NCBI GenBank assembly: GCA_015233155.1
Contig: JADFYG010000033.1
Coordinates: 1,093 to 65,092 of the forward strand
From: Candidatus Rifleibacteriota bacterium
GTDB lineage: Bacteria; Muiribacteriota; Ozemobacteria; Ozemobacterales; Ozemobacteraceae
Direction of reading: 5' to 3'
DNA: 64,000 nucleotides
Of the stretch, positions 44,075 to 64,000 are shown in pieces. Made by a program: the position numbers and the translations under genes. Each line of letters opens with the position of its first letter. Positions within the stretch are counted from its first letter, which is position 1. The notes beneath the pieces are model-generated. The model saw only the letters and a list, made by a program, of their open reading frames with translations. It had not been told where the DNA came from and did not search any database.

Positions 44075-44225
44075 AATCATTCAAGGATCACGCGAAATCG
44101 GGAGAATGATTATTTCGACATACGGACACACCTCTATATTTTACGATAATGTCGCATGTTGCTTGTCATCTTAGATCATCTTCAGCAACGTATTTGAAAT
44201 CAAATTATCTTTCATGGAGTGCAAT

Positions 44226-45476: not shown

Positions 45477-45669
45477 ACGCATAGTGGCTCACAGGCAAAG
45501 GCGGGATGCCGCACTATGGAGATCAGACGGCGCTTGATGCGGCGCGCCCGGCTGTCACGCTCTGCTTTTGCATATAATCAATAGTTTCGAAGACGGATTG
45601 GTGAAGCGTAATCCGCCGATTTGCAGTGGCTATTTGACGAATCGACAAGTGTTTACCAGGGAGATAATA

Positions 45670-46443
45670 ATGGAAAATCTCGTTTTTGAAAAATCGGGAA
45701 AGATCGGAACTTTGACCGTAAATCGGCCGAAGGCACTCAATGCTTTGAACACGCAGACTCTCCGGGAGTTGAAGGATTTTCTGTCAAATCACGTTCAAAA
45801 AGAGGAGCTGACGGTCCTGATCATTACTGGCGGCGGCGAAAAGGCGTTTATCGCCGGCGCAGACATCAAGGAAATGCTGGAGATGACCCACGTGGATATG
45901 CTCCGGTTTTGTGACCTTGGCCAGGAAGTCACGAAATTACTTGAACAGGCCGCATTCGTGACCATCGCAGCAGTTAATGGCTATGCTTTGGGCGGCGGCC
46001 TGGAAGTAGCGCTTGCCTGTGATTTCATTTATGCCTCTGATAACGCCAAACTTGGCCTCCCGGAAGTTACTCTGGGCCTGATTCCAGGCTTTGGCGGAAC
46101 TCAGCGGCTGTTGCGTGCCGTAGGTACCCGCTGGGGCAAGGAGCTCGTCTTCTCCGGCAAGAGCCTCTCCGCTGCCGAAGGATTGAATATCGGGCTGGTG
46201 AACAAGGTGTTTCCGCTGGCCGATCTGCAGAAACAGGTGAGAGACCTGGGTGAAGCCATCTGTCGCAACGGCAGATTCTCTGTCCTGGAAGCCAAGAAAG
46301 CCATAAATCATGGCGAAGGAATGAATCTCAATGACGGGCTCGAATTCGAGAAACAGCTTTGCGCCGTATGTTTTGCCACGGAAGACCGCAAAGAAGGAAT
46401 GAAAGCCTTCGTCGAAAAACGAAAACCTGAATTTCGAATGTAA
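45670..46443 (+). CDS. Enoyl-CoA hydratase (crotonase)
   Basis: This 257-residue crotonase hydrates a 2-enoyl-CoA. It has the oxyanion-hole segments AFIAGADIKEML and YALGGGLEVALACDFIYA, and the catalytic glutamates in GGGLEVAL and LGLPEVTLGLIPG. The start at 45670 has AGGGAG upstream; the longer ORF lacks support. With its neighbours it completes a beta-oxidation set for short acyl-CoA. Confidence 0.93.
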   Translation: MENLVFEKSGKIGTLTVNRPKALNALNTQTLRELKDFLSNHVQKEELTVLIITGGGEKAFIAGADIKEMLEMTHVDMLRFCDLGQEVTKLLEQAAFVTIAAVNGYALGGGLEVALACDFIYASDNAKLGLPEVTLGLIPGFGGTQRLLRAVGTRWGKELVFSGKSLSAAEGLNIGLVNKVFPLADLQKQVRDLGEAICRNGRFSVLEAKKAINHGEGMNLNDGLEFEKQLCAVCFATEDRKEGMKAFVEKRKPEFRM

Positions 46444-46535
46444 CAGGAAAAAAGCTTGCCAAGTAAGATTTAACGATATATGTTTATTCATTCGTTTTTT
46501 TGTCTAAATTTTTTACTTTTTTCAGGAGGTTTTAG

Positions 46536-47582
46536 ATGGTTGGTATTTCAGGTTATGGGACCCAAATTCCGCGGTACAGAATAAAGGTCGAGGAAATTGC
46601 AAAAGTCTGGGGTACCGACGCCCCCGCTTACCGCAGAGGAATGAATTTAAACGAGAAATCCGTTCCGGCACCAGATGAAGATGTAGGAACGTTGTCCGTC
46701 AATGCGGCTTACAATGCGTTGGCAAGATCAGGCATTGCCCCCAAGGATATCGGGGCTGTCTACGTCGGCAGCGAATCTCATCCATATGCGGTGAAACCCA
46801 CCGGAACGATGGTCGCGGAAGCTATCGGAGCATGTCCACATGTACATACGGCATCTCTGGAATTCGCCTGCAAGGCCGGAACCGAAGGAATGTTCATCGG
46901 GACTCAGATGGTACAGGCCGGCAGAGTCGCGAATGTGCTTGCCATTGGCGCCGATACATCCCAGGGAGCCCCCGGAGACGCGCTTGAATACTCCGCAGCA
47001 GCCGGAGCCGCCGCTTTCGTGATCAGCACCAAAAATATCGTTGCGGAATTGCTCGATACAGATTGCTATATGACCGACACTCCTGATTTCTGGCGACGGC
47101 CTTATTCTCATTATCCAGCTCACGGCGGAAGATTCACCGGAGAACCCGCGTATTTCAAACATGTTGAAGGGGCGACAAATGCAATGCTCGCAAGAGCAAA
47201 GATGAAGCCTTCCGACTTTGATTACGTCATTTTCCATCAGCCGAACGGAAAATTCCCCGTCGTCGTTGCCAAAAAGCTCGGATTCAAAGAACCACAGTAC
47301 AGGCATGGACTCTTAACGCCGGTTCTTGGCAATACATACTCTGGTTCCTCCCCATTGGGCCTGGCTGCCACCCTTGATGAAGCCAAGCCGGGACAATTGA
47401 TTCTCCTGGTTTCTTACGGTTCCGGCGCTGGAAGCGACGCCTTTATTTTCAAAACCACGAAACGCCTTCTTGAAGTTCGCGATCTTGCCCCAAGAGTCAG
47501 AAAGCAACTCGATGAACACAAATATTATCTGGAATACGGGCAATACGCCAAAAATCGCGGAAAAATCCTGAGAGCGGAGTAG
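46536..47582 (+). CDS. Hydroxymethylglutaryl-CoA synthase, archaeal type
   Basis: This 348-residue thiolase-fold enzyme interconverts HMG-CoA with acetyl-CoA plus acetoacetyl-CoA. Catalytic residues are visible: Glu in [14 protein letters not shown], Cys in [14 protein letters not shown], His in [11 protein letters not shown], and the [13 protein letters not shown] loop. Length and sequence match the archaeal-type branch. A strong AGGAGG lies before the ATG. It is followed by a thiolase and a DUF35 gene, the trio known in archaea to form one complex that channels acetoacetyl-CoA. Here it sits among leucine-catabolic genes. Confidence 0.92.
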
Positions 47583-47593
47583 GAGAAAGAAAT

Positions 47594-48751
47594 ATGCGAG
47601 ATGTAGCAATTGTTGGCGTTGGACTCATGAAATGGGGAGAACTCTGGGAAAAATCGATTCGCGACCTGTGTGTCGAGGCTGCTTTGAGCTGCTTCGAGGA
47701 TGCGGGAAATGATAAGATAGATTCCATCGTTGTCGGAACAATGGCCAGCGGCCTATTGACCGGCCAGGAACACATGGCCAATATGGTTCCGGATTATCTT
47801 GGAAAAAAACACGTTCCAGCCATGCGCGTTGAATCGGCATGTTGTTCAGGCAGTCAGGCGGTTCGCACCGCCTTCATGGAAGTCGCCTCCGGAATGTCGG
47901 ACTGCGTTCTCGCTCTCGGAGTCGAAAAAATGACTGATGTGAGCGGAAATGACGCTACCTATGCATTGGCAACCGCTTCCGATCAGGAATTCGAAGCTTT
48001 TCACGGCGTTACGTTTCCCGGCCTTTATGCAATGATGGCCAGAAAGCACATGGAACAATACGGTACGACAAGAGAGCAACTTGCTGAAGTTTCTTCGAAA
48101 AATCACAGAAACGGAAGCCTGAATCCTCATGCTCAGTACCCGTTCCCGATGACCCGCGAGCAGGTAATGAATTCCACCCTGGTTGCGGATCCGCTTCGTC
48201 TGATGGACTGTTCCCCAATCACGGACGGAGCAGCCGCGGTTCTTCTTGTACCGGCAACTGATGCGAAAAAGTATAAAAAACATGGAATGGTCGTGATTTC
48301 CGGAGTCGGCCATGCCACGGACACCATCGCACTATGTCAGCGCAAGGATATGCTGAAAATGGAAGCGGTGACCCTGGCTGCAAAAGCGGCGTTAAAAATG
48401 GCCGGAAAAACAATAAAAGACGTTAATTTTGCTGAGGTTCATGACTGCTTTACAATCGCGGAAATAATGATCATGGAAGCCCTTGGCATTGTAAAACCCG
48501 GCCAAGGCGGACCGGCAACCCTCAAGGGACTGACCGCCCTGGAAGGCAAATTCCCGGTCAATCCTTCTGGCGGTTTGAAGTCTAAGGGGCATCCGGTGGG
48601 AGCCACTGGCGTTGCCCAGATTTGTGAAGCGGTTTATCAATTACGGGGCGAAGCCGGAAAACGACAGGTAAAAAATGCGAAAGTCGGACTGACACAAAAC
48701 ATGGGCGGAACCGGCGGAACGAGCGTAGTTCACATTCTGGAGGCTAAATAA
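47594..48751 (+). CDS. Acetoacetyl-CoA thiolase, archaeal-complex type
   Basis: This 385-residue thiolase has Cys in [25 protein letters not shown], and [14 protein letters not shown] near the C-terminus with [12 protein letters not shown]. It is the partner of the adjoining HMG-CoA synthase in the archaeal-type thiolase/HMGCS/DUF35 complex. It starts 11 bases after the synthase stop, and its TAA shares a base with the DUF35 ATG. Direction of flux is not set by sequence. Confidence 0.92.
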
Positions 48752-49149
48752 TGTCCATACCACGACATTGGAGAGAAATACCCCGACGATATCGCCTGGA
48801 AGCAGGCAAGTGCAAAAAATGTAAAGTTATCAACTTTCCCAGCCGGCTCGTTTGCCCGGAATGCGGAGGCAAGACATTCGAAACCGTTAAGCTCTCCGGA
48901 AAAGGGAAGCTGGATACCTTCACCATCATCCGGGTTGCCCCGGAAGGCTTCGGCGACGAGGTTCCATACGCAGTCGGAATCATCGACCTGAAGGATGGCG
49001 TTCGACTCATGGCCCAGATCACCGATTGCGATCCGACTACATTGAAAACCGGCGACAAATTAGTAGCCAAGTTCCGTAAAGTCCAGGAGGACGGGAAAAA
49101 CGGAATAATCAAGTACGGCTACAAATTTGTTCCTGACGTAGGAGTTTAA
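48751..49149 (+). CDS. DUF35 OB-fold zinc-ribbon scaffold protein
   Basis: This 132-residue protein has an N-terminal zinc ribbon (CKKCKVINFPSRLVCPECGG) and an OB-fold (KLSGKGKLDTFTIIRVAPEGF). DUF35 proteins bridge thiolase and HMG-CoA synthase in the archaeal complex and provide a shared CoA-binding site. The gene overlaps the thiolase stop (TAATG) and is followed by a strong terminator, closing this transcription unit. Confidence 0.92.
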   Translation: MSIPRHWREIPRRYRLEAGKCKKCKVINFPSRLVCPECGGKTFETVKLSGKGKLDTFTIIRVAPEGFGDEVPYAVGIIDLKDGVRLMAQITDCDPTTLKTGDKLVAKFRKVQEDGKNGIIKYGYKFVPDVGV

Positions 49150-49154
49150 TTGCC

Positions 49155-49189
49155 AAAAGGGCACACGTATCCTTACGTGTGCCCTTTTT
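49155..49189 (+). terminator. Rho-independent terminator after the DUF35 gene
   Basis: AAAAGGGCACACGTA-TCCT-TACGTGTGCCCTTTT is a perfect 15-bp hairpin with a T-rich 3' arm, 6 bases after the DUF35 stop. It separates the HMG-CoA synthase unit from the carboxylase unit that begins at 49222. Confidence 0.9.
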
Positions 49190-49221
49190 AGGTTTTGAGA
49201 ATATCCGCCTGAGGAGTTCGC

Positions 49222-50829
49222 ATGCGCCGCATCCAAACAAAGATTCAGCCGAGTTCCCCGGAATTCAGGGAGAACGTCGATTATCACAAGGGATTAGCCA
49301 GAGAGTTACAGGAAAAGCTTCAGAAGTTTGCTCAGGGCGGTCCCAAACATGCCCGTGAAAAGCATACCGCACGAGGCAAACTGCTGGTCAGAGACAGATT
49401 AGCTCACCTTTTCGACCCGAACACCCCATTTCTTGAATTATGTCCATTAGCGGCGCTTAGTATGTATGAGGATTCCGCCCCGGCCGCTGGAATGGTCACC
49501 GGCATCGGAGTCGTGAATGGCCGGGAAGTCATGATTGTAGCCAATGACGCCACAGTCAAGGGCGGCACATATTTCCCGATGACGATAAAGAAGCATCTTC
49601 GAGCCCAGGAAGTAGCCATGGAAAACAATCTTCCATGCATCTACCTCGTGGATTCCGGTGGAATTTTCCTGCCTCACCAAAGTGAGACGTTCCCGGACAG
49701 AGAACATTTTGGTCGAATTTTCTATAACCAGGCTCGAATGTCAGCCATGGGAATTCCTCAGATTTCAGTCGTTATGGGGTCATGTACCGCCGGTGGAGCC
49801 TATGTTCCGGCAATGAGCGACGAGAGTGTCATTGTCAAGAACCAGGGCACTATTTTCATTGGAGGCCCGCCACTCGTTAAGGCGGCCACGGGTGAAATCG
49901 TGACCGAGGAAGAGTTGGGCGGAGCGGATGTTCATTGCCGCATCTCCGGCGTTGCTGATCATTACGCGGAAAACGACGCTCACGCAATTTCAATCGCGCG
50001 TGACATCGTTGAGGCCTTGGCTCCACAGAATCGCACCGATATAGGCAGAATGACTCCGGAAGACCCTTTCTATGATCCGGAAGAACTTTACGGAATCGTC
50101 CCAAAAGATGATAGAAAGCCGTTCGATGTCAGGGAAATAATTGCGCGTATCGTCGATGGAAGCCGTTTTCAGGAGTTCAAGGCCCTGTATGGTTTGACCG
50201 TTGTCTGCGGCTTTGCCAGAATAATGGGATATCCGGTCGGAATAATCGGGAATAACGGAGTCCTCTTCTCTGAATCCTCTCTGAAAGCAGCTCATTTTGT
50301 AACATTGTGTTCTATGCGAAAAATTCCGCTCATTTTCCTTCAGAATATCACTGGTTTCATTGTCGGAAAACAGTATGAGCATGGAGGAATTGCCAGAGAC
50401 GGCGCAAAACTGGTTCATGCGGTTTCCAATGCGGACGTACCTAAATTCACGATCGTCATCGGGGGCTCCTATGGCGCAGGAAATTACGGTATGTGCGGTC
50501 GCGCATTCGGTCCCAGATTCATGTGGATGTGGCCCAACTCAAAGATTTGTGTCATGGGCGGCAAGCAGGCTGCCGGCGTGCTTTCGACTGTAAAAGTTGA
50601 GCAACTGAAAAAGCAGGGACAGGAAATCACTCCTGAAATGCTCGAACAAATCCAGGCGCCGATTCTTGCCAGATACGAAGAAGAGGCCAACTGCTATTAT
50701 TCGACCGGGAGAATCTGGGACGATGGAATAATCGACTTGAAGAACACCAGAAATATATTGGGGCTTGGAATTCCTGTTACATTGAATAGCCAGATTCCCA
50801 ATTATAAACTCGGAATTATGAGGATGTGA
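49222..50829 (+). CDS. mccB: Methylcrotonyl-CoA carboxylase carboxyltransferase subunit
   Basis: This 535-residue carboxyltransferase moves CO2 from biotin to 3-methylcrotonyl-CoA, giving 3-methylglutaconyl-CoA. Length and motifs fit the MCC beta branch: [46 protein letters not shown] (split here by family alignment), [17 protein letters not shown] and [24 protein letters not shown] lies upstream of the ATG. It starts a five-gene unit with hydratase, biotin carboxylase, carrier and acyl-CoA dehydrogenase, the liu-type leucine pathway layout. Confidence 0.93.
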
Positions 50830-50833
50830 GTAA

Positions 50834-51637
50834 ATGACTGCAGAAAAGGCTTTTGAAACGATAATTTATCAACAGGAAGGACCTGTTGCACGGGTAACTC
50901 TCAACAGGCCCGTGGTCCATAATGCATTCAATAGCGCCATGATAGAAGAACTGATCCGAATTTTCACTTCTATCTCTAATGATAAATCAGTAAGGGTCGT
51001 AGTATTTGGCGGATCCGGTAAATCATTCTGCGCCGGGGCCGATCTGAACTGGATGCGGGAAATAATAAAATTTTCCTATGAGGAAAACCTTCGCGACTCA
51101 AACCGCGTCGCGGATATGATGGAAGCGATCAATTTCTGCCGTAAACCGGTAATAGCTAAAGTACAAGGTGCTACTCTCGGCGGCGGAACAGGACTTGCAG
51201 CCGCCTGCGACCTTGTTATCGCATCTGAAGCCGCTTTTTTCAGTTTATCAGAGGTGAAGATCGGTCTTGTTCCGGCATGTATTGCCCCTTACGTCATAGC
51301 ACGAATCGGCCCCGGAAAAGCCCGTGAATGTTTCATAACCGGCGAACGCCTTTCGGCATTAAAGGCTGTTCAAATCGGCCTTGCCACAGAAGTAGTCTCC
51401 GCGGACAAACTCGACAGTCGGGTAAACGAAAGAGTCGCCGAAATTCTCAATAACGGTCCGGAAGCAATTGCGGAGGCCAAGGCTCTCGTGGCGTCAGTCA
51501 CCGGAATGCCCATCGCTGAAGCGAAAAAACATACTGCGGAAATCATTGCGCGGCTTCGAATCAGCCCGGAAGGCCAGGAAGGAATGGACGCCTTCCTGAG
51601 CATGCGCAAACCTAAATGGGTAGTGGCAAATGATTAA
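50834..51637 (+). CDS. Methylglutaconyl-CoA hydratase-like crotonase
   Basis: This 267-residue crotonase has SGKSFCAGADLNWMRE and ATLGGGTGLAAACDLVIASE with the FSLSEVKIGLVPA segment. The ADLNWM element and the place between MCC subunits are typical of 3-methylglutaconyl-CoA hydratase (LiuC-like), which makes HMG-CoA. It starts 4 bases after mccB and overlaps the biotin carboxylase gene by 8 bases. General enoyl-CoA hydratase activity is the alternative. Confidence 0.88.
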   Translation: MTAEKAFETIIYQQEGPVARVTLNRPVVHNAFNSAMIEELIRIFTSISNDKSVRVVVFGGSGKSFCAGADLNWMREIIKFSYEENLRDSNRVADMMEAINFCRKPVIAKVQGATLGGGTGLAAACDLVIASEAAFFSLSEVKIGLVPACIAPYVIARIGPGKARECFITGERLSALKAVQIGLATEVVSADKLDSRVNERVAEILNNGPEAIAEAKALVASVTGMPIAEAKKHTAEIIARLRISPEGQEGMDAFLSMRKPKWVVAND

Positions 51638-53117
51638 AAAGGTTCTTATAGCAAATCGATCTGAAATTGCCGTTCGAATTATCAGAGCTGCCAGAGAAGA
51701 AGGTATTTCGTCCGTTGCCGTTTATTCCGATGTGGACAAGGATGCTCTTCATGTCCGAATGGCCGATGAAAGTTACAATATAGGCCTTCCGCCTGCAAAA
51801 GAGAGTTATCTTAACGCGGATAAAATAATTGAAACCGCCTTGAAGGCAAATTGTCAGGCAATTCATCCGGGATATGGCTTTTTAGCGGAAAATGCTGATT
51901 TCGCAAAAAAAGTTGAGGATGCAGGCCTGATATTCGTCGGACCGTCTCATGCATCGGTTTTAGCTATGGGCGATAAAATTCAGGCTCGTAACCTGATGAC
52001 TAAAGCCGGGGTTCCGGTTGTACCAGGCATTCTTGCAAAAATTGATTCGTTCAGTCATGCAAAAAAAGAGGCCGAACAACTTGGGTATCCGATACTTGTA
52101 AAAGCCGCCGGAGGCGGAGGAGGAAAAGGGATACGGCTGGTCAGCAATTCGAACGAGCTCGAAGCCGCATTGGAAGCCGCCGCCCGGGAGGCGACTTCCG
52201 CATTCAGTGACCCCAGAGTTTATCTGGAAAAATATCTGGAGAAGCCCAGGCATATCGAAGTACAAGTTCTTGCTGATTCATTTGGAAACACCGTCCATCT
52301 GTTCGAAAGAGAATGCTCAATCCAGAGGCGCCATCAAAAGGTCATAGAAGAATCTCCCTCTTTCATCGTGGATGATGATTTGCGGGCGAAAATGGGCAAT
52401 GCGGCTGTCCGGGCTGCAAAAGCGGTAAATTATCGAAGTGCCGGAACCATCGAATTTCTGGTCGATCAGAATAAAAACTTTTTTTTCCTCGAGATGAACA
52501 CCCGCATCCAGGTCGAGCACCCTTTAACTGAGTTGATTACCGGCCTCGATCTTGTTCGGCTCCAGTTCAGGATCGCCAATGGCGCGAAAATTCCGTTTAC
52601 ACAGGATCAGATCCATAGACACGGACATGCTATTGAATGCCGGATTTATGCGGAAGATCCCGAGAACAACTTCCTCCCCTCCCCCGGAAAACTGCACCTG
52701 GTCAGAATGCCGCAAGGCCCCGGAATTCGCGTGGACTCCGGAATTGAGACCGGCCTCGAAATATCAATTTATTATGACCCTATTCTCAGCAAAATAATTG
52801 CATGGGGAGAAAACCGGGAAACAGCGCGGCAGAGAATGCTTATCGCCCTCCGGGAAACAGTAGTATTAGGCGTACAAACCCCGGTCTCATTCCTGCTGGA
52901 TGTCCTGAATGACCCGAATTTTATATCCGGACATACGCATACGGGTTTCCTGGAAGAACATGGCTTCATAAACAAGCCGCCGACGGACAAAGAGGTTCCC
53001 CTGGAAGTCCTCGTCGCCGCAGCGTTGTATCGACCCGAAAGAGCTGTTGCCGCGGAAGGAAAAACTCTTTCCTCGACACCATGGACCGAAATCGGGCCAT
53101 GGAAAATCGGAGGATGA
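51630..53117 (+). CDS. mccA: Biotin carboxylase subunit of the acyl-CoA carboxylase
   Basis: This 495-residue ATP-grasp enzyme carboxylates biotin. Diagnostic parts are the N-terminal KVLIANRSEIAVRIIRAARE, the glycine loop KAAGGGGGKGIRLV, the FFLEMNTRIQVEHPLTE active-site block and AIECRIYAEDPENNFLPS. Unlike most MCC alpha subunits, the biotin carrier is not fused but is encoded by the next gene 3 bases downstream. Specificity is inferred from the neighbours. Confidence 0.93.
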   Translation: MIKKVLIANRSEIAVRIIRAAREEGISSVAVYSDVDKDALHVRMADESYNIGLPPAKESYLNADKIIETALKANCQAIHPGYGFLAENADFAKKVEDAGLIFVGPSHASVLAMGDKIQARNLMTKAGVPVVPGILAKIDSFSHAKKEAEQLGYPILVKAAGGGGGKGIRLVSNSNELEAALEAAAREATSAFSDPRVYLEKYLEKPRHIEVQVLADSFGNTVHLFERECSIQRRHQKVIEESPSFIVDDDLRAKMGNAAVRAAKAVNYRSAGTIEFLVDQNKNFFFLEMNTRIQVEHPLTELITGLDLVRLQFRIANGAKIPFTQDQIHRHGHAIECRIYAEDPENNFLPSPGKLHLVRMPQGPGIRVDSGIETGLEISIYYDPILSKIIAWGENRETARQRMLIALRETVVLGVQTPVSFLLDVLNDPNFISGHTHTGFLEEHGFINKPPTDKEVPLEVLVAAALYRPERAVAAEGKTLSSTPWTEIGPWKIGG

Positions 53118-53120
53118 CCA

Positions 53121-53648
53121 ATGGAAAGAAGTTTCAAGGTAGGGGAAAAGGTATATATAGTTCAGATTTCAAGCCAGACACAGGCCCCGGAAGCGGGAGA
53201 ATGCGCCATCAAGGCAACCGTTGACGGCAAGGAAATAGAAATTTCCCTGAATCGCGTTGCGAATGGAGAATTCATAATCAACAAGGCGGGAAAGCAGACT
53301 CGTCTTTTTCTGGCCCAGGGAAAATCCGGAGAGATTTTTGTTCATCGACAGGGCAGGGTTTATACCGTCGCTCCTGTGGAAAAAGATTTCGGAGCTGGTG
53401 AAAATGCTGGCCCGGTCAGCAGTCGTCTTGTCGCGACGATGCCTGGAAAGATTCTGAAAGTTCTGGTTGAACTTGGGCAAACTGTTGAAAAGAACCAGCC
53501 TGTTTTAATCATGGAATCAATGAAAATGGAAATGACTCAAACCGTTCACTTTCACGGGAAAGTTGAAGAGATCTGTGTTAAAGCCGGAGATCAGGTCAAT
53601 GCCGGAGCTTTGATGGTCCGCATCGAACCGACGCCGAAGGACAATTAA
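53121..53648 (+). CDS. Biotin carboxyl carrier protein
   Basis: This 175-residue protein ends in a biotinyl domain with the modification motif MESMKMEM, the biotin lysine at about residue 135. The first ~95 residues (EISLNRVANGEFIINKAGKQ and on) form a beta-rich linker domain like the BT domain of MCC/PCC alpha subunits. It supplies the swinging arm between the biotin carboxylase and MccB. Confidence 0.92.
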   Translation: MERSFKVGEKVYIVQISSQTQAPEAGECAIKATVDGKEIEISLNRVANGEFIINKAGKQTRLFLAQGKSGEIFVHRQGRVYTVAPVEKDFGAGENAGPVSSRLVATMPGKILKVLVELGQTVEKNQPVLIMESMKMEMTQTVHFHGKVEEICVKAGDQVNAGALMVRIEPTPKDN

Positions 53649-53680
53649 CCACAGATGAATACAGATTATAAGGAGTAAAT

Positions 53681-54868
53681 ATGGATTTTGATTGGACAAA
53701 CGATCAGATTGAATTTCGGAAAATGGCCAGAGATTTCGCGGAGCGCGAAATTCGACCAGTTGCCGCATGGATTGAGGGGCGGGATCAACCAAATGGGTTA
53801 GGAAACTTTCCCAGAGAGCTCCTTCAAAAAATGGGCAAAGCAGGGTTCATGAGTTGTCTTCATGACAAGGAGTTCGGAGGCAATGGAAAAGGGTTGCTGT
53901 ACGAATGTATTATCGCCGAAGAATTCGGAGCTGTCAGCCCTGCCGCTGAGCTGGCCCGACTGGTTTCATGCGCCCTTTTTGGAATGCCACTGGCAATGTT
54001 CGGAACGAAAGAGCAGAAAGCCGAATTTCTGCCAAAGATTCTGGCCGGAGAATTAATCGGCGCAATCGGAATTACCGAACCCAACGTGGGCTCAGATACT
54101 GCGGGAATGAAAACGACAGCTATACTCGATGGCGATACATGGGTAATAAACGGGGAAAAACGTTTCATTACGAATGGCAGTCAGGCCGATGTATTAAGCC
54201 TTTTTGCAATCACGGATCCAACAGTAAAAGCACATAAAGGAATGAGCACATTTCTTTTTGAAACGAAAACTCCCGGCTTTTCAGTAGTCAAGAATTATGA
54301 AATGCATGGTATGCATGGAATGCGTGTTTCTCATCTGGCTTTCAATAACTGCAGAATTCCCAGGCATCGCCTGCTTGGCCAGTTAAACCAGGGTTTCAAA
54401 CAGCTGATGATGGAACTCGACAAAGAGCGTATAGCCCTTGCGGCGGAATCTCTCGGCATGGGAAGAGCCTGCATTGAAGCCGCGCTGAAATTTTCGCAGG
54501 AAAGAGTGCAATTTGGTAAGCCAATTAAGGATTTCGAGGGAATATCCTTCAAAATTGCCGAAAATGCAACCTTGCTGGAAGCATCTCAACTGATGGTTCA
54601 TCGTGCAGCCTGTAAAGCCGACAAAAATTTACCTTGTACAAAAGAAGCCGCTATGGCGAAGCTTTTCGCATGCGATGAAGTCATCAGGATTTGTGACGAC
54701 TGCATCCAGATTCTTGGCGGAACCGGGTACACCTGCGATAGTTTCGTTGAACAATTTTACCGGGATGCGCGTCTGATGTCGATCGGCGGCGGAACTCGCG
54801 AAATCATGAAATATCTTATTTCCCGTGAAGTTTATTCACAAGCCGGCTATTCTTCAAAGGGCGCCTGA
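53681..54868 (+). CDS. Isovaleryl-CoA dehydrogenase-type acyl-CoA dehydrogenase
   Basis: This 395-residue flavoenzyme has GAIGITEPNVGSDTAGMKTT and a FITNGSQADVLSLFAITD region. At the usual catalytic site it reads LMSIGGGTREIMKYL, with no glutamate, but helix G carries LDKERIALAAE, where isovaleryl-CoA and long-chain dehydrogenases keep their catalytic Glu (LDLER in human IVD). That, and the link to MCC genes, supports isovaleryl-CoA oxidation to 3-methylcrotonyl-CoA. A ribosome-binding site (AAGGAG) precedes the ATG. Confidence 0.88.
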   Translation: MDFDWTNDQIEFRKMARDFAEREIRPVAAWIEGRDQPNGLGNFPRELLQKMGKAGFMSCLHDKEFGGNGKGLLYECIIAEEFGAVSPAAELARLVSCALFGMPLAMFGTKEQKAEFLPKILAGELIGAIGITEPNVGSDTAGMKTTAILDGDTWVINGEKRFITNGSQADVLSLFAITDPTVKAHKGMSTFLFETKTPGFSVVKNYEMHGMHGMRVSHLAFNNCRIPRHRLLGQLNQGFKQLMMELDKERIALAAESLGMGRACIEAALKFSQERVQFGKPIKDFEGISFKIAENATLLEASQLMVHRAACKADKNLPCTKEAAMAKLFACDEVIRICDDCIQILGGTGYTCDSFVEQFYRDARLMSIGGGTREIMKYLISREVYSQAGYSSKGA

Positions 54869-54877
54869 AAACATAAA

Positions 54878-55942
54878 ATGGAAACATTTGAATTGATGCA
54901 TGGAGCAGGCCTGGAACAGATCATCTTTTTCAGGGAAGATTCGGTTGATTTAAAAGCGGTTGTAGCCATTCACAATACTCTCCTCGGGCCTGCGATCGGT
55001 GGTATACGGGTAATGGATTATCCAGACCAGGAAAGCATGTTGAAGGATGCTACAGAGCTGGCACGCGAGATGACCCTGCGCACTGGTCTTTCCGACTGCG
55101 ACTTCGGAGGAGGCAGCGCCATACTCTGCGGAAACTCCAGGAAGGGCGAAGCTTATTTCCGGGCTTTCGGAAGATTTATCAATCGTCTGGCCGGCCAGTT
55201 CTATGCCATCATGGAAGTCGGAACAGACAGCAAGGATTTGAAACACATCAAAAGAGAAACAAACTACGTACTGGCGCTTCCCGAAGCTTTCGGAGGTATC
55301 GCCGACCCTACCAGCATTACTGCCCAGGGTCTTCTTCACGGTATCAGGGCCACTGCAAAAATAGTCTTCGGACAATCAAGTCTGGAAAATGTCACTTGTT
55401 TAGTGCAAGGTGCCGGGCGAATTGGAAGCAACATAGTCGAGCTGCTCGTCCAGGCAAAGGCAAAACTTCTGGTCAGCGATAAAAATTACGACAGGATCAA
55501 GAACATCCAGGACCGCTATCCCGAAGTGTCCATGGTCCGCCCCGAGGAAGTCGTGGATACAAAGTGCGATTTGATCGTTCCGTGTGCTCTCGGAAATCTG
55601 GTTAATTCCCAGACTGTAGAACGCCTTAAATGTCGTGCTATCGCAGGTGGTGCCAGTAATATAATTCCGGATATGGAAACCGGCGAGCTTCTGCACAAAC
55701 ACAATATCCTGTATACACCTCATTTTTTAATTGATTCAGGAGAAGTAATTCAGGCTGATTATGAGTTGAAAAAGCGTTCACGCACTCTCCTGCAATCCGC
55801 AATCGGAGAGATTTACGGACGCACCCTTGAGCTTCTTGAATCGGCAAGGGAGAACAGGGAACCGCCTGTCAAAACAGCGTTGAGATTGGCAACAGAACGT
55901 TTCGCCAATATAGGCAGTATCGGCCGCCGGATTTCCATCTGA
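54878..55942 (+). CDS. Leucine dehydrogenase homolog lacking catalytic lysines
   Basis: This 354-residue protein aligns end to end with leucine/valine/phenylalanine dehydrogenases (LKAVVAIHNTLLGPAIGGIRV, RAFGRFINRL, DCDLIVPCALGN-like block, HFLIDSGEVIQADYEL). The active-site signature is changed: MTLRTGLSDCDFGGGSAI replaces the MTYKNAAAGLNLGGGKTV of Bacillus LeuDH. The substrate lysine 68 is Arg and the catalytic lysine 80 is Ser, with the same numbering. The later catalytic Asp (ITAEDVGT) appears as Glu (AIMEVGT). The NAD loop is VQGAGRIGSN. It is unlikely to be a normal deaminating dehydrogenase; it may be a sensor, a scaffold or a new enzyme. Confidence 0.88.
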   Translation: METFELMHGAGLEQIIFFREDSVDLKAVVAIHNTLLGPAIGGIRVMDYPDQESMLKDATELAREMTLRTGLSDCDFGGGSAILCGNSRKGEAYFRAFGRFINRLAGQFYAIMEVGTDSKDLKHIKRETNYVLALPEAFGGIADPTSITAQGLLHGIRATAKIVFGQSSLENVTCLVQGAGRIGSNIVELLVQAKAKLLVSDKNYDRIKNIQDRYPEVSMVRPEEVVDTKCDLIVPCALGNLVNSQTVERLKCRAIAGGASNIIPDMETGELLHKHNILYTPHFLIDSGEVIQADYELKKRSRTLLQSAIGEIYGRTLELLESARENREPPVKTALRLATERFANIGSIGRRISI

Positions 55943-55959: not shown

Positions 55960-57966
55960 ATGAAAAGCAGTAAGAGTTTCCTTATTCTCGTTATAAATCC
56001 TGGTTCTACCTCCACAAAAATCGGAATCTTCGAAGATGAACTCTGCAAGTCTGAAAAGATACTTCGACATAGTTCCACCGAGCTGGAGAAATTCGAGAAA
56101 ATATGGGATCAATATGAGTTTCGTAAGCGGGAAATTCTGGCTTTTCTGAAGTCTACCAACGTCGATCTTACTAAATTTCATTGCGTCGTAGGACGCGGTG
56201 GGCCGCTTAAACCAATAGAAAGCGGCACATATCGCGTCGATGAAAGAATGATCAACGACCTGCGATGCGGTATCCAGGGGCAACACGCTTCAAATCTCGG
56301 CGGTGTCCTCGCCTATGGCATAGGCTGGGATTATTCCATCCCCTCCTTCATTGTCGATCCTATTTCAGTCGATGAATTGGAGCCTGTTTCACGTTACTCC
56401 GGCATTGCCGAAATCCCTCGATACAGCCTGGTTCACGCACTCAATATCAAGGCTACGGCAAGAAAAGTCGCCAGGGATATCAAACGCCCGCTTGAAGATT
56501 TGAATCTCATCGTCGCACATCTGGGCGGCGGAATCACCGTCGCCGCGCTGAAAAAAGGGCGCATTGTCGATGTAAATAACGGACTTTGCGAGGGACCTTT
56601 CACTCCGGAACGTTCCGGGTCAGTGCCCCTGATTCCGCTCGTCGAAATGTGTTTCTCCGGGAAATACGACAAAAAGAGTATATTGAAGAAAATTGTCGGG
56701 AAGGGCGGACTGACAAGTTATCTCAATACAAACAGCTGCGCGGAAGTCGAAGCGCTCATCCGCGCAGGCAACACCCGCGCAAAGATCATTTTTGAAGCGA
56801 TGGCCTACCAGATTTCCACTGAAATCGGCGCCCGAGCAGTGACACTTTTCGGAAAAGTCGATGGAATCATTCTGACTGGTGGCATGGCTCATTCCGCTAT
56901 GCTTACCAACCTGATCGAGGAACGTTGTTCTTTTCTGGGAAACGTTCAGCGTTACCCGGGGGAGGACGAATTGGAAGCCCTTGCCCTGGGCGGACTTCGC
57001 GTCCTTCGCGGAGAAGAGGCGGCCAAAACATACGATGCGAAAAAGAAAAGTATCGGTATTTTCTTCTCCGAGAATCTCCAGGAATATGATCTGGCAATAC
57101 AAGCCCTTGAAAGGGAGTTGCGTGAGCACGGGTATAGATTCCGGCAGAGCGACGAAAATCTGGAGATCATCGTTCGCAACGCCCACGGGAATACAGCCAT
57201 TATGCATGACGCCGCGGAGGAATTCCTTGCACGAAATGTCGATCTTGTCGTTTCTATAGGCTCCCCGGCCGCGGCCGCCACAAAGTTGTATTTGAAAGGG
57301 CATGTGATTCCCGTAATCTGCGTTGCCTGCTTCGACCCGGTGGTCATGGGGTTGGCTGAGAGTTATGCGGGGTCCGGCAACAATATTGCGGGCAACTGTT
57401 ATCGAATCGATATCGAGAATCAGATCAAAGAAGGGCTGTGCCCATTGATCCCGGGTCTGAAACGTTTAGGTGTAATTTATAAATCAGGAGAATTACAGTC
57501 AGAGATCCAACTGGACGAAACCAGGGAAGTGGGACAGAAATTGGGATTCGAAGTGATTTGTTTCGATTGCCAGACTCCCGAGGATCTGACCAGCGGCGCC
57601 GTATTTTTCCGCAAGCAGCTGGTTCAGGCTGTTTTCCTCGCATCCGACACAACTGCTGCCGGAGCAACCGAGCAACATTTAATGCCCTTGACCGAAAAAA
57701 TTCCGACTCTCTGCGCCCTCGAATCGACAGTAAAAAAGGGGGGGCTTGTCGGGCGGGTTGCCGACTGGGACTCTCTATGCAAAGACTCGGTCGGAATCGG
57801 CCTGGACATCCTGGAAGGTGCAGCTCCCGCAAAAATCCCGATCTCTCGAAATCCGAATGCAAGAACGATAATCAATCTTCGCACGGCTAAGATGCTCGGA
57901 ATCAAACCCTCAGAAGAATTCATGAAATCCGCGGAAGAAAAACTGTTCGCAGACGTGGAGCAATAG
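55960..57966 (+). CDS. Butyrate kinase fused to an ABC-type substrate-binding-like domain
   Basis: This 668-residue protein is two families in one frame. Residues ~1-360 are a butyrate/branched-chain fatty acid kinase (LVINPGSTSTKIGIFED, VGRGGPLKPIESGTY, IVAHLGGGITVAALKKGRIV, GIILTGGMAHS), which makes ATP from an acyl-phosphate. Residues ~370-668 match the TrpX/ABC_sub_bind fold (NVDLVVSIGSPAAAATKLYLK, DPVVMGLAESYAGSGNNIAGN, LIPGLKRLGVIYKSGE), normally an exported amino-acid-binding protein. No signal peptide or membrane helix is present, so the binding domain must be cytosolic and may regulate the kinase. It starts 17 bases after the dehydrogenase homolog. Confidence 0.88.
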   Translation: MKSSKSFLILVINPGSTSTKIGIFEDELCKSEKILRHSSTELEKFEKIWDQYEFRKREILAFLKSTNVDLTKFHCVVGRGGPLKPIESGTYRVDERMINDLRCGIQGQHASNLGGVLAYGIGWDYSIPSFIVDPISVDELEPVSRYSGIAEIPRYSLVHALNIKATARKVARDIKRPLEDLNLIVAHLGGGITVAALKKGRIVDVNNGLCEGPFTPERSGSVPLIPLVEMCFSGKYDKKSILKKIVGKGGLTSYLNTNSCAEVEALIRAGNTRAKIIFEAMAYQISTEIGARAVTLFGKVDGIILTGGMAHSAMLTNLIEERCSFLGNVQRYPGEDELEALALGGLRVLRGEEAAKTYDAKKKSIGIFFSENLQEYDLAIQALERELREHGYRFRQSDENLEIIVRNAHGNTAIMHDAAEEFLARNVDLVVSIGSPAAAATKLYLKGHVIPVICVACFDPVVMGLAESYAGSGNNIAGNCYRIDIENQIKEGLCPLIPGLKRLGVIYKSGELQSEIQLDETREVGQKLGFEVICFDCQTPEDLTSGAVFFRKQLVQAVFLASDTTAAGATEQHLMPLTEKIPTLCALESTVKKGGLVGRVADWDSLCKDSVGIGLDILEGAAPAKIPISRNPNARTIINLRTAKMLGIKPSEEFMKSAEEKLFADVEQ

Positions 57967-57970
57967 GCGC

Positions 57971-59224
57971 ATGCTGAAAAATCCACGAACACCCCAGCAA
58001 AAATCGCCCATACCGGTGATTTTGACCGGGAAAAAGTGGGCTCCTTCAACCGAAGGTTCAACCAAATCAGGTAAGAATTATGGATATATTGTCGTCGTTA
58101 TTTTTTGTCTTGCCGCCTTTCTGCTCTGGCGGATATTTTCAGGAGGAGCTCCGACACAAGCCGTCATAACGCCAATTGCCGCGCCTCAAACCGCTTCACC
58201 AACCATTGCCTCTGCTTCTGTCACAGACAAGGCTATTTCGACTCCGCTCCCGGACAGGATAGCTTCAGCTACAATAACGGAGAAGACGGCTTCGGCTACG
58301 ATCCAGGACAAGATAGCCTCAGCTTCGATTCCAGGCAGCATAACCTCGACTCTGCTCTCAGACAAGATCGCCTCGGCTAAGATTCCGGACAAAACAGCCT
58401 CAACGCCGATACAAGTTAATATTGCATCGATGACAATCCCGCCAATGGTTGCAGTGCCCGTGGCCAGCCATGTTATGCATGTAAAAACAGATAACCAGGA
58501 TATTTCGGGCGTTCCATCACTGAAGAGGCATTCCAGACTTCTCATGGGCTTGCGGCCGGTTCTTCAGGCTGACGGTTGGAAGATCACATGGGTTAGCCGT
58601 AAAAAGGGAGTCTCGTGCAGAAACGACGCAGGGAGTTCCCTTATCATCATCCCCGGGAATAAACGGGCTATCTTGAATGGAAAGCCTCTCTATTCGAGTG
58701 AAAAGCCACTCGTCACAAAAAACGGGCAGCTTTTCGTTTCCATAGAACTGTTGAATGATATCCTTGATGGCAGACTTTCCATAGTCGGCGGTCGCTCGTC
58801 TCGTGAACTGAAAGTTCGTCTGGCCGCGACAAAAACAAATGCTGGCACCGACATGCAGGCATCGAAAAATATATTGTCTGCAACCAGAGAACTGTCCGGA
58901 ATTACCGCCGTTCGACGGAAAGGGCACCTCATGATCAGTCTTCGTCAGGTCCTTGAGGCCGATGGCTGGACGATTACCTGGAAAGACATGAAAATGGGCG
59001 CGATGTGTAATAAAGGTGATTCCCGGGTCTTTGCTGTTGCCCCCGGGAAAATCAAAAGTAAGCTGAATGATACGACGATCAGAAACAGGCGGACTCCAAT
59101 CATCCATCGTAAACGTCTTCTTGTTGCCGCGACCACTCTTGAAAAGGTGTTGGAATGCAGGATTACCCTGCTAAGCTTCAGCAGAAAGTCTCATGAGGCC
59201 GAAATCCGGCTTTCCGGTGGCTAG
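57971..59224 (+). CDS. Membrane-anchored stalk protein with two copper-amine-oxidase-N-like domains
   Basis: This 417-residue protein has a short cytosolic N-terminus, one membrane helix (YIVVVIFCLAAFLLWRIF) and a Ser/Thr/Ala-rich stalk of imperfect ~11-residue repeats (IASATITEKTA, SATIQDKIASA, SIPGSITS, LLSDKIASA, KIPDKTAST). Two related domains follow, each of the Cu_amine_oxidN1 type (RPVLQADGWKITWVSRKKGV and RQVLEADGWTITWKDMKMGA). These usually serve as envelope-binding modules. It starts 4 bases after the kinase fusion; a functional link is doubtful. Confidence 0.65.
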   Translation: MLKNPRTPQQKSPIPVILTGKKWAPSTEGSTKSGKNYGYIVVVIFCLAAFLLWRIFSGGAPTQAVITPIAAPQTASPTIASASVTDKAISTPLPDRIASATITEKTASATIQDKIASASIPGSITSTLLSDKIASAKIPDKTASTPIQVNIASMTIPPMVAVPVASHVMHVKTDNQDISGVPSLKRHSRLLMGLRPVLQADGWKITWVSRKKGVSCRNDAGSSLIIIPGNKRAILNGKPLYSSEKPLVTKNGQLFVSIELLNDILDGRLSIVGGRSSRELKVRLAATKTNAGTDMQASKNILSATRELSGITAVRRKGHLMISLRQVLEADGWTITWKDMKMGAMCNKGDSRVFAVAPGKIKSKLNDTTIRNRRTPIIHRKRLLVAATTLEKVLECRITLLSFSRKSHEAEIRLSGG

Positions 59225-60363: not shown

Positions 60364-60429
60364 AGGTAGGGCGCGACGGCCCGGCGCGCCGTATCAAAAA
60401 GCGGCGGGCCCGGCGGTCCCGCCCTACCT
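60364..60429. repeat. Long imperfect REP-like hairpin
   Basis: AGGTAGGGC and GCCCTACCT bracket a second, GC-rich imperfect arm pair (GCGACGGCCCGGCGCGCCG against its near-complement, four mismatches) around the loop TATCAAAAAG, giving a stem of about 28 bp. It lies between the convergent vWA and Fe-S oxidoreductase genes and its last base is the first of the latter's stop codon. It may act as a bidirectional terminator. Confidence 0.65.
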
Positions 60430-62579
60430 CAGAGAAGGCTGTCGCGAAGCAGCTCCGCGATATCCTTGGTCGGCATGTTATCCCGGTTCGCTGCTTTAAC
60501 GCCATCGTCAAGCATGGTCAGACAGTATGGACACGCTGAAACAATGCAATTGGCACCTGTATCGAGGCACTCTTTCGCGCGGAGCACGTTGATTTTCTCG
60601 CCTTCGGTTTCTTCCATCCACATGCGACCTCCGCCGGCTCCGCAACAGAAGCTGCGATCGAGGTTGCGGGGCATTTCTAGAGCGGGATTTCCGGTGGCGG
60701 CTTTTATCAACTCTCTTGGACTTTCATAAATTTTGTTGTACCGGCCAAGATAACATGAGTCATGGAATGCAACACGCGTCAGGGCATTGTTCGGATTCGC
60801 AGGTATCTGAAGCCTGCCTTCTTCCAGAAGTTTCGGCAAAAGCTCGGAGTGATGTACAACTTCATATTGGCCGCCAAAATCCGAATACTCGTTTTTCAAA
60901 GTATTGAAACAATGCGGACAGAGTGTAATGATTTTTTTGACTTTCAATTCCTTGAAAAGCTCGATATTGGTTTCCACCGCAGCCTGAAAAAGGCCTTCCT
61001 CGCCCATGCGCCGCGCGGTTTCTCCACAGCATTTTTCATCCTTGCCGAGAATGCCGTAAGATACTCCTGCCTTGTCGAGCAATTCACACAATGCATTGGC
61101 GACCTTCATATTCCTGGCATCGAAGGAGCCCGCACAACCGACATACAGGAGCCATTCGATATCTTCCGATTCGCCGAATGTGCGAATACTGCGTCCTTTG
61201 GCCCAATCGCCGCGCTGCTGCCAGCCGATTCCCCATGGATTTGAATTGCGCTGCACATTCTTCAGGAAACTCTTCACCTGCGGAGAATATGATTTCAACA
61301 TCAAAGTCAGATAGCGACGCATTTCAAAAATTTTATTCGTGTGCTCGATATAAAAAGGACAATGCTCAATGCAATAGCCGCAACTTGTACAAGCCCAGAT
61401 GACATCCTCACTGATGGCTTCTCCAACAAGTACTTTTACTTCTGAGGCAGGCGGTCCCGCCGCTACCATTGGTTGTGCAACGTCAGCGGTTTTCTCTTCA
61501 GGCTCTGCGAGTTTGATGAAACCTTCTTTTACAAGCAATTCTCTCTCAGACCGTGGAATCGGAACAGAGAGTCCCTTTTCGAGTATATATTGAAAAATAA
61601 GGGAACTCTTCGTCGCTTTCAGTTCCGGCCCGCGTGACAACAGATAATTCTTCAGATCGGCAATGAGGAATTTCGGATTCAACGCCTTTCCGGAGCGGGC
61701 CGCCGGACAATTTTCCATGCAGCGACCGCATTCAACGCAGGCAAAAAGATCTAACAGCTGCTTCCACGTATAATCTTCAATTTTTTCAACGCCGAAACTC
61801 TCGGAATTTTCGATATCGATCTTCGTCATACGGCCTTTGGGCCCGATATTCCGAAAATACTCGTTGAAAGCGCAGGCAATCAAATGCATGTGCTTTGAAC
61901 GCGGAATATATACAAGAAAGCTGAGAATGAGCAGAAGATGTCCCCACCACGCCACCCAATAAAGAACATGCAGAACGGAGCCTGAAAAACCAACAAAATA
62001 ATGTGAAAGAAAAGAACCTATCACAGCCCAATTCTGATAGGACAACGTAAACGGGGCGGCGGCAAATCGAAAGACATCGATAAAAAGAGCACAGGTCACG
62101 ATACATGTTATGAGCAGTATAATGACGGTGGCGTCTGACGATGAGCGTTCAAGTCTGTCAGGCCTGATTACATAGCGTCGATATGCCGCCATCGCCAGTC
62201 CGCAATAAACCAGAATGCAGAAAATGTCTTTCCCGAAAGAAACCAGGCCATACAAAGAAGAGTCCATGACTCCCCACATAAGAGACGGCGCCAGATACTC
62301 GCTGAAAAGGAAAATGTTTCCAATACCTAAAACCATGAAGCCGTAGAATATGAAAATATGGAGTATGCCCGGATAAGGCTCGCGTAACAGGGCGGAATGC
62401 ATGACGACATTCCGTATGACTCCGGTGGCGCGTTCCAAGGGCTGGTCAAGGCGCGAATCAGGTCTTCCCCGGGCAAGAAGACTGATTCTTCCGTATAAGG
62501 CGCTGGCGAACAGCCAAAGAGAAATACCCCATAAGATAAAAAAAACAGTGAACCCTACGGCTCCGTTCATTGCCCACAT
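60429..62579 (-). CDS. ETF:(methyl)menaquinone oxidoreductase-type membrane Fe-S protein
   Basis: This 716-residue protein has an N-terminal NarI-like membrane domain of about six helices with histidines for heme b, then two [4Fe-4S] motifs (CVECGRCMENCP and CTSCGYCIEHCPF), and a C-terminal pair of CCG domains (KCCGETARRMGEEG and CCGAGGGRMWME). This layout matches the EMO proteins that take electrons from ETF and reduce menaquinone. The adjacent etfAB genes on the same strand, 3 bases away, support this. It would link acyl-CoA oxidation to the bc/oxidase chain. Confidence 0.9.
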   Translation of the reverse strand: MWAMNGAVGFTVFFILWGISLWLFASALYGRISLLARGRPDSRLDQPLERATGVIRNVVMHSALLREPYPGILHIFIFYGFMVLGIGNIFLFSEYLAPSLMWGVMDSSLYGLVSFGKDIFCILVYCGLAMAAYRRYVIRPDRLERSSSDATVIILLITCIVTCALFIDVFRFAAAPFTLSYQNWAVIGSFLSHYFVGFSGSVLHVLYWVAWWGHLLLILSFLVYIPRSKHMHLIACAFNEYFRNIGPKGRMTKIDIENSESFGVEKIEDYTWKQLLDLFACVECGRCMENCPAARSGKALNPKFLIADLKNYLLSRGPELKATKSSLIFQYILEKGLSVPIPRSERELLVKEGFIKLAEPEEKTADVAQPMVAAGPPASEVKVLVGEAISEDVIWACTSCGYCIEHCPFYIEHTNKIFEMRRYLTLMLKSYSPQVKSFLKNVQRNSNPWGIGWQQRGDWAKGRSIRTFGESEDIEWLLYVGCAGSFDARNMKVANALCELLDKAGVSYGILGKDEKCCGETARRMGEEGLFQAAVETNIELFKELKVKKIITLCPHCFNTLKNEYSDFGGQYEVVHHSELLPKLLEEGRLQIPANPNNALTRVAFHDSCYLGRYNKIYESPRELIKAATGNPALEMPRNLDRSFCCGAGGGRMWMEETEGEKINVLRAKECLDTGANCIVSACPYCLTMLDDGVKAANRDNMPTKDIAELLRDSLL

Positions 62580-62582
62580 TAT

Positions 62583-63572
62583 CTAGTTTGCCCTTATTTT
62601 GAGAATCTCTTCGCGCAACACCGGAAGCACCTGGAACAAATCACCTACTATTCCGTAATTTGCCAGTTTGAAAATATTCGCATCCGGATCTTTGTTTATT
62701 GCCACAATGACCTTGGATGACGACATCCCGGCAAGATGCTGTATAGCGCCTGAAATGCCGCATGCTATATACAAGGTTGGGCTGACGGCTTTTCCGGTTT
62801 GTCCTACCTGATGCTCATGACTGATCCAGCCGGAATCGACTGCGGCCCTTGATGCTCCTACAGCGGCACCGATATCTTTGGCGAACTCAAACAACAGCTT
62901 GAAGTTTGCCCCGTCTTTCATGCCTCGTCCGCCTGAGACGATAATATCGGCCTCAGCAACATCCAGAATCGCCCCTGCTGACGCGATGATTTCACGGCAA
63001 ACGGTTTTCAGGGAATCCCGGGCCGCGGGCGTCGAAATCTTTTCCACTTCAGGTGCGGCCCCGGCGCCTTTCACTGCTGCCGCGAAAACATTTGGACGCA
63101 GGGAAAGAATGGGGATAGCACCGGCAGCAGCTCCCACTTCGGCAATCACCTTACCGGAATACATGGGTCGGCGCGCACTGATCTTGTCGCCATCAATGCT
63201 CATTCCTATGACATCGGCAATCAAAGCCCCTTTTACGCGCCCGGCAAGTCGCGCGGCGAGATCGCGCCCCGGAAAGGTGGCGCCCACTAATACCGCAACC
63301 GGCTTTACTTTTTCAATAATCGAGGCGAATATCCCCGTATATGGCTCGGTTGTATAATTTGCCAGAGAGGCATCATCAGCAAGATACACCTTCTCCACCC
63401 CTAGACATCCTAATTCACCCGTCAGGCCGGCAACTTCCTTCCCGATCAAAACCGCGGAAAGTTTTGCACCCATGGACTGACACATCTTCTTGCCTTCACC
63501 AGCAAGCTCAGCCGCTATTTTGAGAAGTTTCCCCTGACGAACCTGTACCCAGATGAGAATTTCTTTACTCAT
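62583..63572 (-). CDS. etfA: ETF alpha subunit (no ferredoxin domain)
   Basis: This 329-residue EtfA has the FAD-binding C-terminus (GASRAAVDSGWI, QVGQTGKAVSPTLYIACGISGAIQHL) and the N-terminal EtfAB domain. Unlike the paralog at 9490 it has no N-terminal ferredoxin part. Its place beside the EMO-type protein suggests it is the ETF that delivers electrons from acyl-CoA dehydrogenases to quinone. Confidence 0.94.
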   Translation of the reverse strand: MSKEILIWVQVRQGKLLKIAAELAGEGKKMCQSMGAKLSAVLIGKEVAGLTGELGCLGVEKVYLADDASLANYTTEPYTGIFASIIEKVKPVAVLVGATFPGRDLAARLAGRVKGALIADVIGMSIDGDKISARRPMYSGKVIAEVGAAAGAIPILSLRPNVFAAAVKGAGAAPEVEKISTPAARDSLKTVCREIIASAGAILDVAEADIIVSGGRGMKDGANFKLLFEFAKDIGAAVGASRAAVDSGWISHEHQVGQTGKAVSPTLYIACGISGAIQHLAGMSSSKVIVAINKDPDANIFKLANYGIVGDLFQVLPVLREEILKIRAN

Positions 63573-63592
63573 GATTGTCCTATTCTCCAGTC

Positions 63593-64000
63593 CTAAATGA
63601 CTTTGGCTTCTTCGCGCAAAAGCTTCGCAAGTTCTTTGGCGGCAGTGCCGGAATCGCCTTTCAGAACCTTGCCGACCGGACGTGGCGGCGGAGAAGTGAA
63701 TTTCCCGATCTTAACACGCGGCCCGCTGAATCCTTCCAGATAAGACTTCGAATCAAAGGTTTCCAAAGCCTTCTTGTTGGCGCGCTTGATATCGATGATC
63801 GTTGGAAGCCGGGGCTCATTCAAGCCTTTCTGACATGATATAACCGCCGGAAGAGGGGCTTCCACAACCATCGTGCCACCTTCGATGTCGCGATGACAAA
63901 CGACCTTTTTGCCGTCTCCGGCAATTTCAACCTTCGTCACGACCAACACTTGAGCCAGTCCGAGATTCTCGGCCAGCATCGAACCTACTCCTGCCGTATC
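63593..64000 (-). CDS. etfB: ETF beta subunit, N-terminus cut by window edge
   Basis: The frame is open to the window edge, and the first readable residues DTAGVGSMLAE are part of the DGDTAxVG loop of EtfB. The docking segment LPAVISCQKGLNEPRLPTI is present. About 135 residues remain, so roughly the first half lies outside. It pairs with the EtfA encoded about 20 bases downstream. Confidence 0.92.
   Translation of the reverse strand, partial: DTAGVGSMLAENLGLAQVLVVTKVEIAGDGKKVVCHRDIEGGTMVVEAPLPAVISCQKGLNEPRLPTIIDIKRANKKALETFDSKSYLEGFSGPRVKIGKFTSPPPRPVGKVLKGDSGTAAKELAKLLREEAKVI

Follow-up and report, generated by a model that had tools for sequence, protein, structure and literature searches.

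Many fermentations end in an ATP-yielding step catalyzed by an acyl kinase, and no such kinase is known to us to have a solute-binding domain of its own. In a 64,000-nucleotide stretch of DNA from a Candidatus Rifleibacteriota bacterium (hereafter, the window), a single open frame on the forward strand, running from an ATG at position 55,960 to a stop at 57,966, encodes a 668-amino-acid protein in which a butyrate kinase is followed by a domain resembling a periplasmic binding protein. Why would such a domain be joined to a metabolic kinase, and what might it bind? An initial annotation, made from the sequence alone, suggested that the second domain senses leucine, a keto acid or an acyl product and thereby gates the kinase.

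A butyrate kinase and a binding-protein domain in one frame

Profile searches assign the two halves of the protein to separate families. Residues 1-356 (positions 55,960 to 57,027, forward strand) form the butyrate kinase domain, which matches the full length of the NCBIfam equivalog TIGR02707 (butyr_kinase) over residues 9-356 with 471 bits against a cut-off of 289.1, and which also includes a Pfam Acetate_kinase match at residues 154-316. A linker of approximately seven residues (357-363; 57,028 to 57,048, forward strand), with conserved Y358 and K363, leads to a PF04392/TrpX-like type I binding-protein domain at residues 364-660 (57,049 to 57,939, forward strand). The Pfam ABC_sub_bind profile (PF04392) matches this domain at residues 380-660 (E = 1e-35; 123.8 bits versus 25.9). 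Because the frame opens on the first strand of the kinase, the fusion has neither a signal peptide nor a membrane anchor. Thus, the initial annotation was correct both in placing the two domains in one uninterrupted frame and in assigning the binding-protein domain to the cytosol.

Thermotoga butyrate kinase 2 (Buk2; PDB 1saz/1x9j) is a close relative of the kinase half, with an E value of 1e-104 and, in a fold search, a full-length match of 49% identity. From general knowledge of acetate and butyrate kinases and an alignment to 1x9j, we take N13, S16, S18, R79, H109, D133, H159, H187, R218 and E337 to be candidate catalytic residues, and none of them varies among the 17 fusions. These findings suggest that the fused kinase is intact, as had been claimed, and its sequence carries no sign of inactivity. 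Solved and annotated butyrate kinases stop at approximately 360-380 residues, whereas the fusion continues with a 300-residue binding domain.

Two doubts were raised at the outset: that a sequencing error had joined two separate genes, and that the C-terminal part does not adopt a binding-protein fold. Regarding the first, the same joined frame is present in 16 further proteins, 15 of which come from 14 other genomes when tandem and second copies are counted, and nearly all of these are from independent assemblies. This recurrence excludes a sequencing or assembly join, to which we assign a negligible probability. Regarding the second, an AlphaFold2 model of the C-terminal part alone reaches a pLDDT of 88.9 and a pTM of 0.86, and VIA-align superimposes it on CD0873 (6hni) with a Z score of 34.6 and an rmsd of 2.1 over 293 residues. 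Neither doubt is therefore borne out. The AlphaFold2 model of the full-length fusion has a mean pLDDT of 73.9 and a pTM of 0.48, parts of the kinase being poorly predicted, and this weakness of the kinase half renders the domain interface unreadable.

As the initial annotation proposed, the same architecture was sought elsewhere. A total of 17 fusion proteins are present in 15 genomes. These belong to Ca. Riflebacteria, to a single Muiribacteriota MAG and to the Bacteroidales, where a profile of the second domain recovers an architecture of 650-670 amino acids in 10 of the 247 genomes sampled. Among genomes of the phylum, full-length relatives occur twice in tandem in G016, at two separate loci in G010, and also in G011 and G001. 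A scan of GTDB-type contigs with strict peptide patterns had located relatives in Ca. Riflebacteria, Muiribacteriota and one Bacteroidales MAG; it missed most of the Bacteroidales fusions that the order-wide profile search recovered, and the taxonomic range is therefore a lower bound. When the whole of Bacteroidota is sampled evenly, 1 of 395 genomes carries the fusion, and one other genome (G237) exceeds the threshold because a single long frame contains two binding-protein matches. The named fusion genomes are MAGs, some of which are incomplete, and no plasmid record spans the fusion.

In a tree with 35 stand-alone kinases, all of the fused kinase halves group together in a separate clade (support 99/98), a pattern that fits a single fusion event and later vertical and/or lateral spread. 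Purifying selection acts on the kinase, on the binding domain and on the dehydrogenase-like partner described below (dN/dS 0.03-0.41 for unsaturated pairs), with the binding half mostly evolving faster than the kinase half. In G016, the partner and fusion genes occur as two tandem copies within approximately 10 kb (L033:8662-18758), and these copies are approximately 34-39% different at synonymous sites.

Several other long frames were also noted. Bacteroidales proteins of 640-660 amino acids (L086-L089) combine an N-terminal hydrophobic segment with one or more PF04392-like domains; their hits are weak, they have no kinase match, and they are probably double or anchored binding proteins. A 947-amino-acid frame (L090:2069-4912) has a permease-like N-terminal part and a PF04392 domain, and may be a fusion of a transporter permease with a binding protein.

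A binding domain with an altered pocket

The second half of the fusion matches three solved proteins that bind aromatic amino acids (3lft, 6hni and 3lkv). Throughout its length, the predicted domain shares the fold of TrpX, CD0873 and VC_1101 at Z scores of 33-35 (33.7 to VC_1101 and 33.3 to SP1069 by VIA-align), whereas the wider type I family scores approximately 21 and below. Unlike these relatives, the fusion domain is cytosolic, lacks a signal peptide and is joined to an enzyme. The score of the fusion for the TrpX equivalog NF041285 is 123 bits against a cut-off of 390, and the binding half is therefore a relative of TrpX rather than a TrpX.

Side-chain preference in the TrpX/CD0873 family is set at two positions, which are Glu263 and Tyr279 in CD0873; the first is Ala in Phe and Trp binders, and the second is Gln in the Trp binder (PMC6816091). 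In the fusion, these positions align with Leu587 and Trp603, respectively, each of which is kept in 16 of the 17 proteins. Two further substitutions are invariant among the fusions: Tyr481 replaces the Asp of the SD motif present in the three solved proteins, and Gln513 replaces the Asn of the SExNS motif present in most relatives. Position 435 is Ser instead of Thr in 15 of 17 fusions. Together, the changes at Leu587, Trp603, Tyr481 and Gln513 argue against an ordinary aromatic amino acid as the ligand. Because large hydrophobic residues now occupy both specificity positions, the ligand is likely to be aliphatic and smaller than an aromatic amino acid, possibly a small aliphatic acid, keto acid, carboxylate or branched-chain metabolite. 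In addition, loss of the Asp at position 481 may indicate a ligand without an amino group, provided that this Asp contacts the amine in the relatives. Leucine, as originally named, does not find support, since the pocket positions are unlike those of all solved relatives that bind amino acids.

If the pocket has departed this far from those of its relatives, does the domain bind a ligand at all? It could instead be a scaffold, free of ligand, that only dimerizes the kinase or docks the pseudo-dehydrogenase and a phosphotransbutyrylase into one complex. Conservation of the cleft, suggested as a check in the initial annotation, gives a divided answer: residues are fixed at the aligned pocket positions, but the loops lining the cleft exceed the remainder of the domain in conservation by only a small margin (permutation p 0.06), such that ligand binding is likely and conservation gives no proof of it. 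The weak conservation of these loops is also what a scaffold would predict, and two other observations point the same way. The DP motif (459-460) is among the family motifs lost in the Bacteroidales and Muiribacteriota fusions, where ligand binding may be weaker as a consequence, and a complex is suggested by the perfect co-occurrence of the fusion with a partner whose catalytic residues have changed. However, G434, S435 (or Thr), E511, Q513, L587, G594, W603 and N639 are invariant or nearly so across the 17 fusions at positions that correspond to the ligand motifs of the family. Residues that have been swapped and then fixed at such positions fit changed specificity better than lost binding. 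We consider a ligand-free scaffold unlikely, and favor a domain that binds a small ligand.

Even a domain that binds might have no regulatory purpose. It could act as a carrier or buffer that captures the acid or acyl product of the kinase and passes it to a partner by channeling. Direct fusion to the enzyme through a very short linker, and pocket changes that fit a small aliphatic acid, would both suit this function. In contrast, an acceptor enzyme common to the loci is absent, and the slow release of ligands by binding proteins is better suited to sensing than to flux. A carrier role seems to us highly improbable.

An ordinary role in transport was also considered and rejected. The fusion has no signal peptide, and its neighbors in the window are metabolic genes with no recognized permease among them. 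Furthermore, a PF04392 search of the genome at E<=1e-10 recovers the fusion alone, which makes use of the domain in transport unlikely.

Sensing in the cytosol by a domain of this fold has precedent. LacI/CcpA regulators use a ligand-binding type I fold inside the cell, where it is attached to DNA-binding domains, and CcpA aligns with the predicted domain at a Z score of approximately 19. These regulators belong to a different sequence family, and their partner is a DNA-binding domain instead of a metabolic kinase.

The pseudo-leucine-dehydrogenase partner

The gene immediately upstream (54,878 to 55,942, forward strand), whose stop codon is separated from the fusion ATG by 17 bases, encodes a homolog of leucine dehydrogenase (LeuDH; 1e-71 to 8gxd and 6e-69 to 6acf). 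The catalytic residues Lys68, Lys80 and Asp115 are absent from this product, and Arg, Ser and Glu are present instead. In LeuDH, Lys80 serves as the general base, and Lys80 mutants retain approximately 1.5% activity (Sekimoto 1993, as cited in PMC12018205).

All 15 fusion genomes carry a LeuDH-like partner gene, which is located directly upstream of the fusion in 12 of them (14 copies) and elsewhere, not adjoining the fusion, in G538, G636 and G606. Lys80 is replaced (by S, A or G) in every one of the 17 partner copies, as is Asp115 (by E, S or G). The 14 adjacent copies form one clade (98/95), and the partner and kinase trees share the same main deep split, which separates Riflebacteria from Muiribacteriota plus Bacteroidales. 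Among the 247 Bacteroidales genomes, the partner is present in 10 of 10 with a fusion and in none of the other 237 (Fisher 5e-18, ignoring phylogeny); an eleventh, weaker match, in G574, retains the Asp as well as both lysines and is an ordinary LeuDH. The altered dehydrogenase initially noticed beside the fusion is thus one half of a conserved, co-inherited module. Moreover, these partners constitute a previously unrecognized family of pseudo-leucine-dehydrogenases, and the link to the fusion provides a testable function for degenerate proteins that databases name dehydrogenases.

Might the partner still be an enzyme with other chemistry, such as a reductase or an amino acid dehydrogenase that uses a different base, so that the pair performs an ordinary catabolic step? 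The copies from Riflebacteria still have a GxGxxG-like dinucleotide motif and are under purifying selection, and the Lys80 mutants mentioned above are not entirely inactive. Countering these points are the universal loss of Lys80 and the change of Asp115 in all copies, as well as degradation of the dinucleotide motif in some Bacteroidales copies (GIDGVG and GVDNIG). Continued catalysis of this kind appears decidedly unlikely. We favor a probable non-catalytic partner, which would retain the octamer-type fold without its base and serve as a second sensor or as a binding or assembly subunit.

A LeuDH gene beside a butyrate kinase gene is familiar from the bkd operon of Bacillus (ptb-bcd-buk), which also encodes phosphotransbutyrylase, and whose dehydrogenase is active and kinase unfused. 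The module described here shares this gene pairing, but its dehydrogenase has lost key residues and its kinase bears a sensor-like domain.

Additional LeuDH-like genes were observed near unfused genes. Those at L056:10506-11645, L057:7251-8324, L058:4852-5958 and L059:2799-3872 adjoin unfused butyrate kinases in Riflebacteria and form a second, partly degenerate series in which Lys80 is kept and Lys68 is lost (S/T). Others beside unfused butyrate kinases (L060:8491-9573, L066:319-1401 and L067:3416-4498) have lost both Lys68 (A/S) and Lys80 (S), and at L060 and L067 another LeuDH-like gene comes after the kinase. Finally, genes adjoining ptb (L056:3043-4251, L057:14587-15774 and L065:1953-3155) keep Lys68 and Asp115, with Cys or Ser in place of Lys80.

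Genomic context and a proposed mechanism

Upstream of the pair lies a same-strand unit (44,214 to 54,868, forward strand), seen in this genome only, with genes for thiolases, enoyl-CoA hydratases, an archaeal-type HMG-CoA synthase, a ChsH2-type OB-fold protein, a carboxyltransferase, a biotin carboxylase, a biotin carrier and an acyl-CoA dehydrogenase. This content is consistent with leucine/isovaleryl-CoA/HMG-CoA metabolism. The original placement of the fusion at the end of such a unit holds for this genome and does not extend to the others: the remaining Riflebacteria fusion loci lack those neighbors and share only the pseudo-dehydrogenase, while in three Bacteroidales loci (L046, L083 and L084) the pair is adjoined by ptb and ackA, for phosphotransbutyrylase and acetate kinase. 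The latter arrangement, in which a ptb neighbor is another likeness to butyrate kinases, represents the expected route from acyl-CoA through acyl phosphate to acid and ATP. The genome analyzed here has two ptb homologs. One, a phosphate acetyl/butyryltransferase (PTA_PTB) gene in the window (7,390 to 8,304, reverse strand), is distant from the fusion and is a possible source of its acyl phosphate; the other, on contig C103, is beside a separate, unfused butyrate kinase.

What, then, might the fusion accomplish? We consider it moderately probable that it is a metabolite-gated acyl kinase of the butyrate/isovalerate type with a pseudo-dehydrogenase partner, where the gating, the physical complex and the class of ligand are what we infer. 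The N-terminal half would interconvert acyl phosphate plus ADP with acid plus ATP. The C-terminal half, a type I solute-binding domain from the TrpX/CD0873 family, would be retained in the cytosol and joined to the kinase by the short conserved linker, and its closure on a small ligand would alter the activity or direction of the kinase. The two lobes of an acyl kinase open and close in catalysis, and the closure signal would travel to these lobes via the linker.

A bolder proposal, which we offer tentatively and with considerable doubt, is that the two gene products form one obligate complex that functions as a dual-sensor acyl kinase. The dead LeuDH would read the amino acid/nucleotide state, whereas the binding domain, its specificity shifted away from aromatic amino acids and toward a small acid (branched or aliphatic) or a keto acid, would read the acyl state. 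Both would set substrate-level phosphorylation, and the module would have moved between phyla as a unit.

The component families are known, and their combination amounts to a butyrate kinase variant with what appears to be a new kind of regulatory domain. We did not find this architecture described in the open-access literature on butyrate/acetate kinase fusions, ABC_sub_bind proteins, or butyrate and branched-chain metabolism in Riflebacteria. If the domain does gate the kinase, then it would represent a natural allosteric switch made from a periplasmic binding protein, and the choice of anaerobes between making and spending acyl phosphate would become testable. More broadly, the conserved fusion and its residue-lost partner suggest that an ATP-yielding step has a built-in metabolite sensor in several little-known bacterial groups.

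Three other features of the window were noted. At 46,536-49,149, genes for an archaeal-type HMG-CoA synthase, a thiolase and a ChsH2-type OB-fold protein occur together in a bacterial operon. A frame at 57,971-59,224 starts 4 bases past the fusion stop and encodes a hydrophobic anchor with Cu_amine_oxidN1 repeats. Lastly, a convergent set on the reverse strand (60,429-63,979) encodes an Fe-S/CCG oxidoreductase together with ETF genes, of which the alpha gene is assigned by Pfam and the frame at 63,593-63,979 is a putative member, and is likely the electron acceptor for acyl-CoA dehydrogenases.
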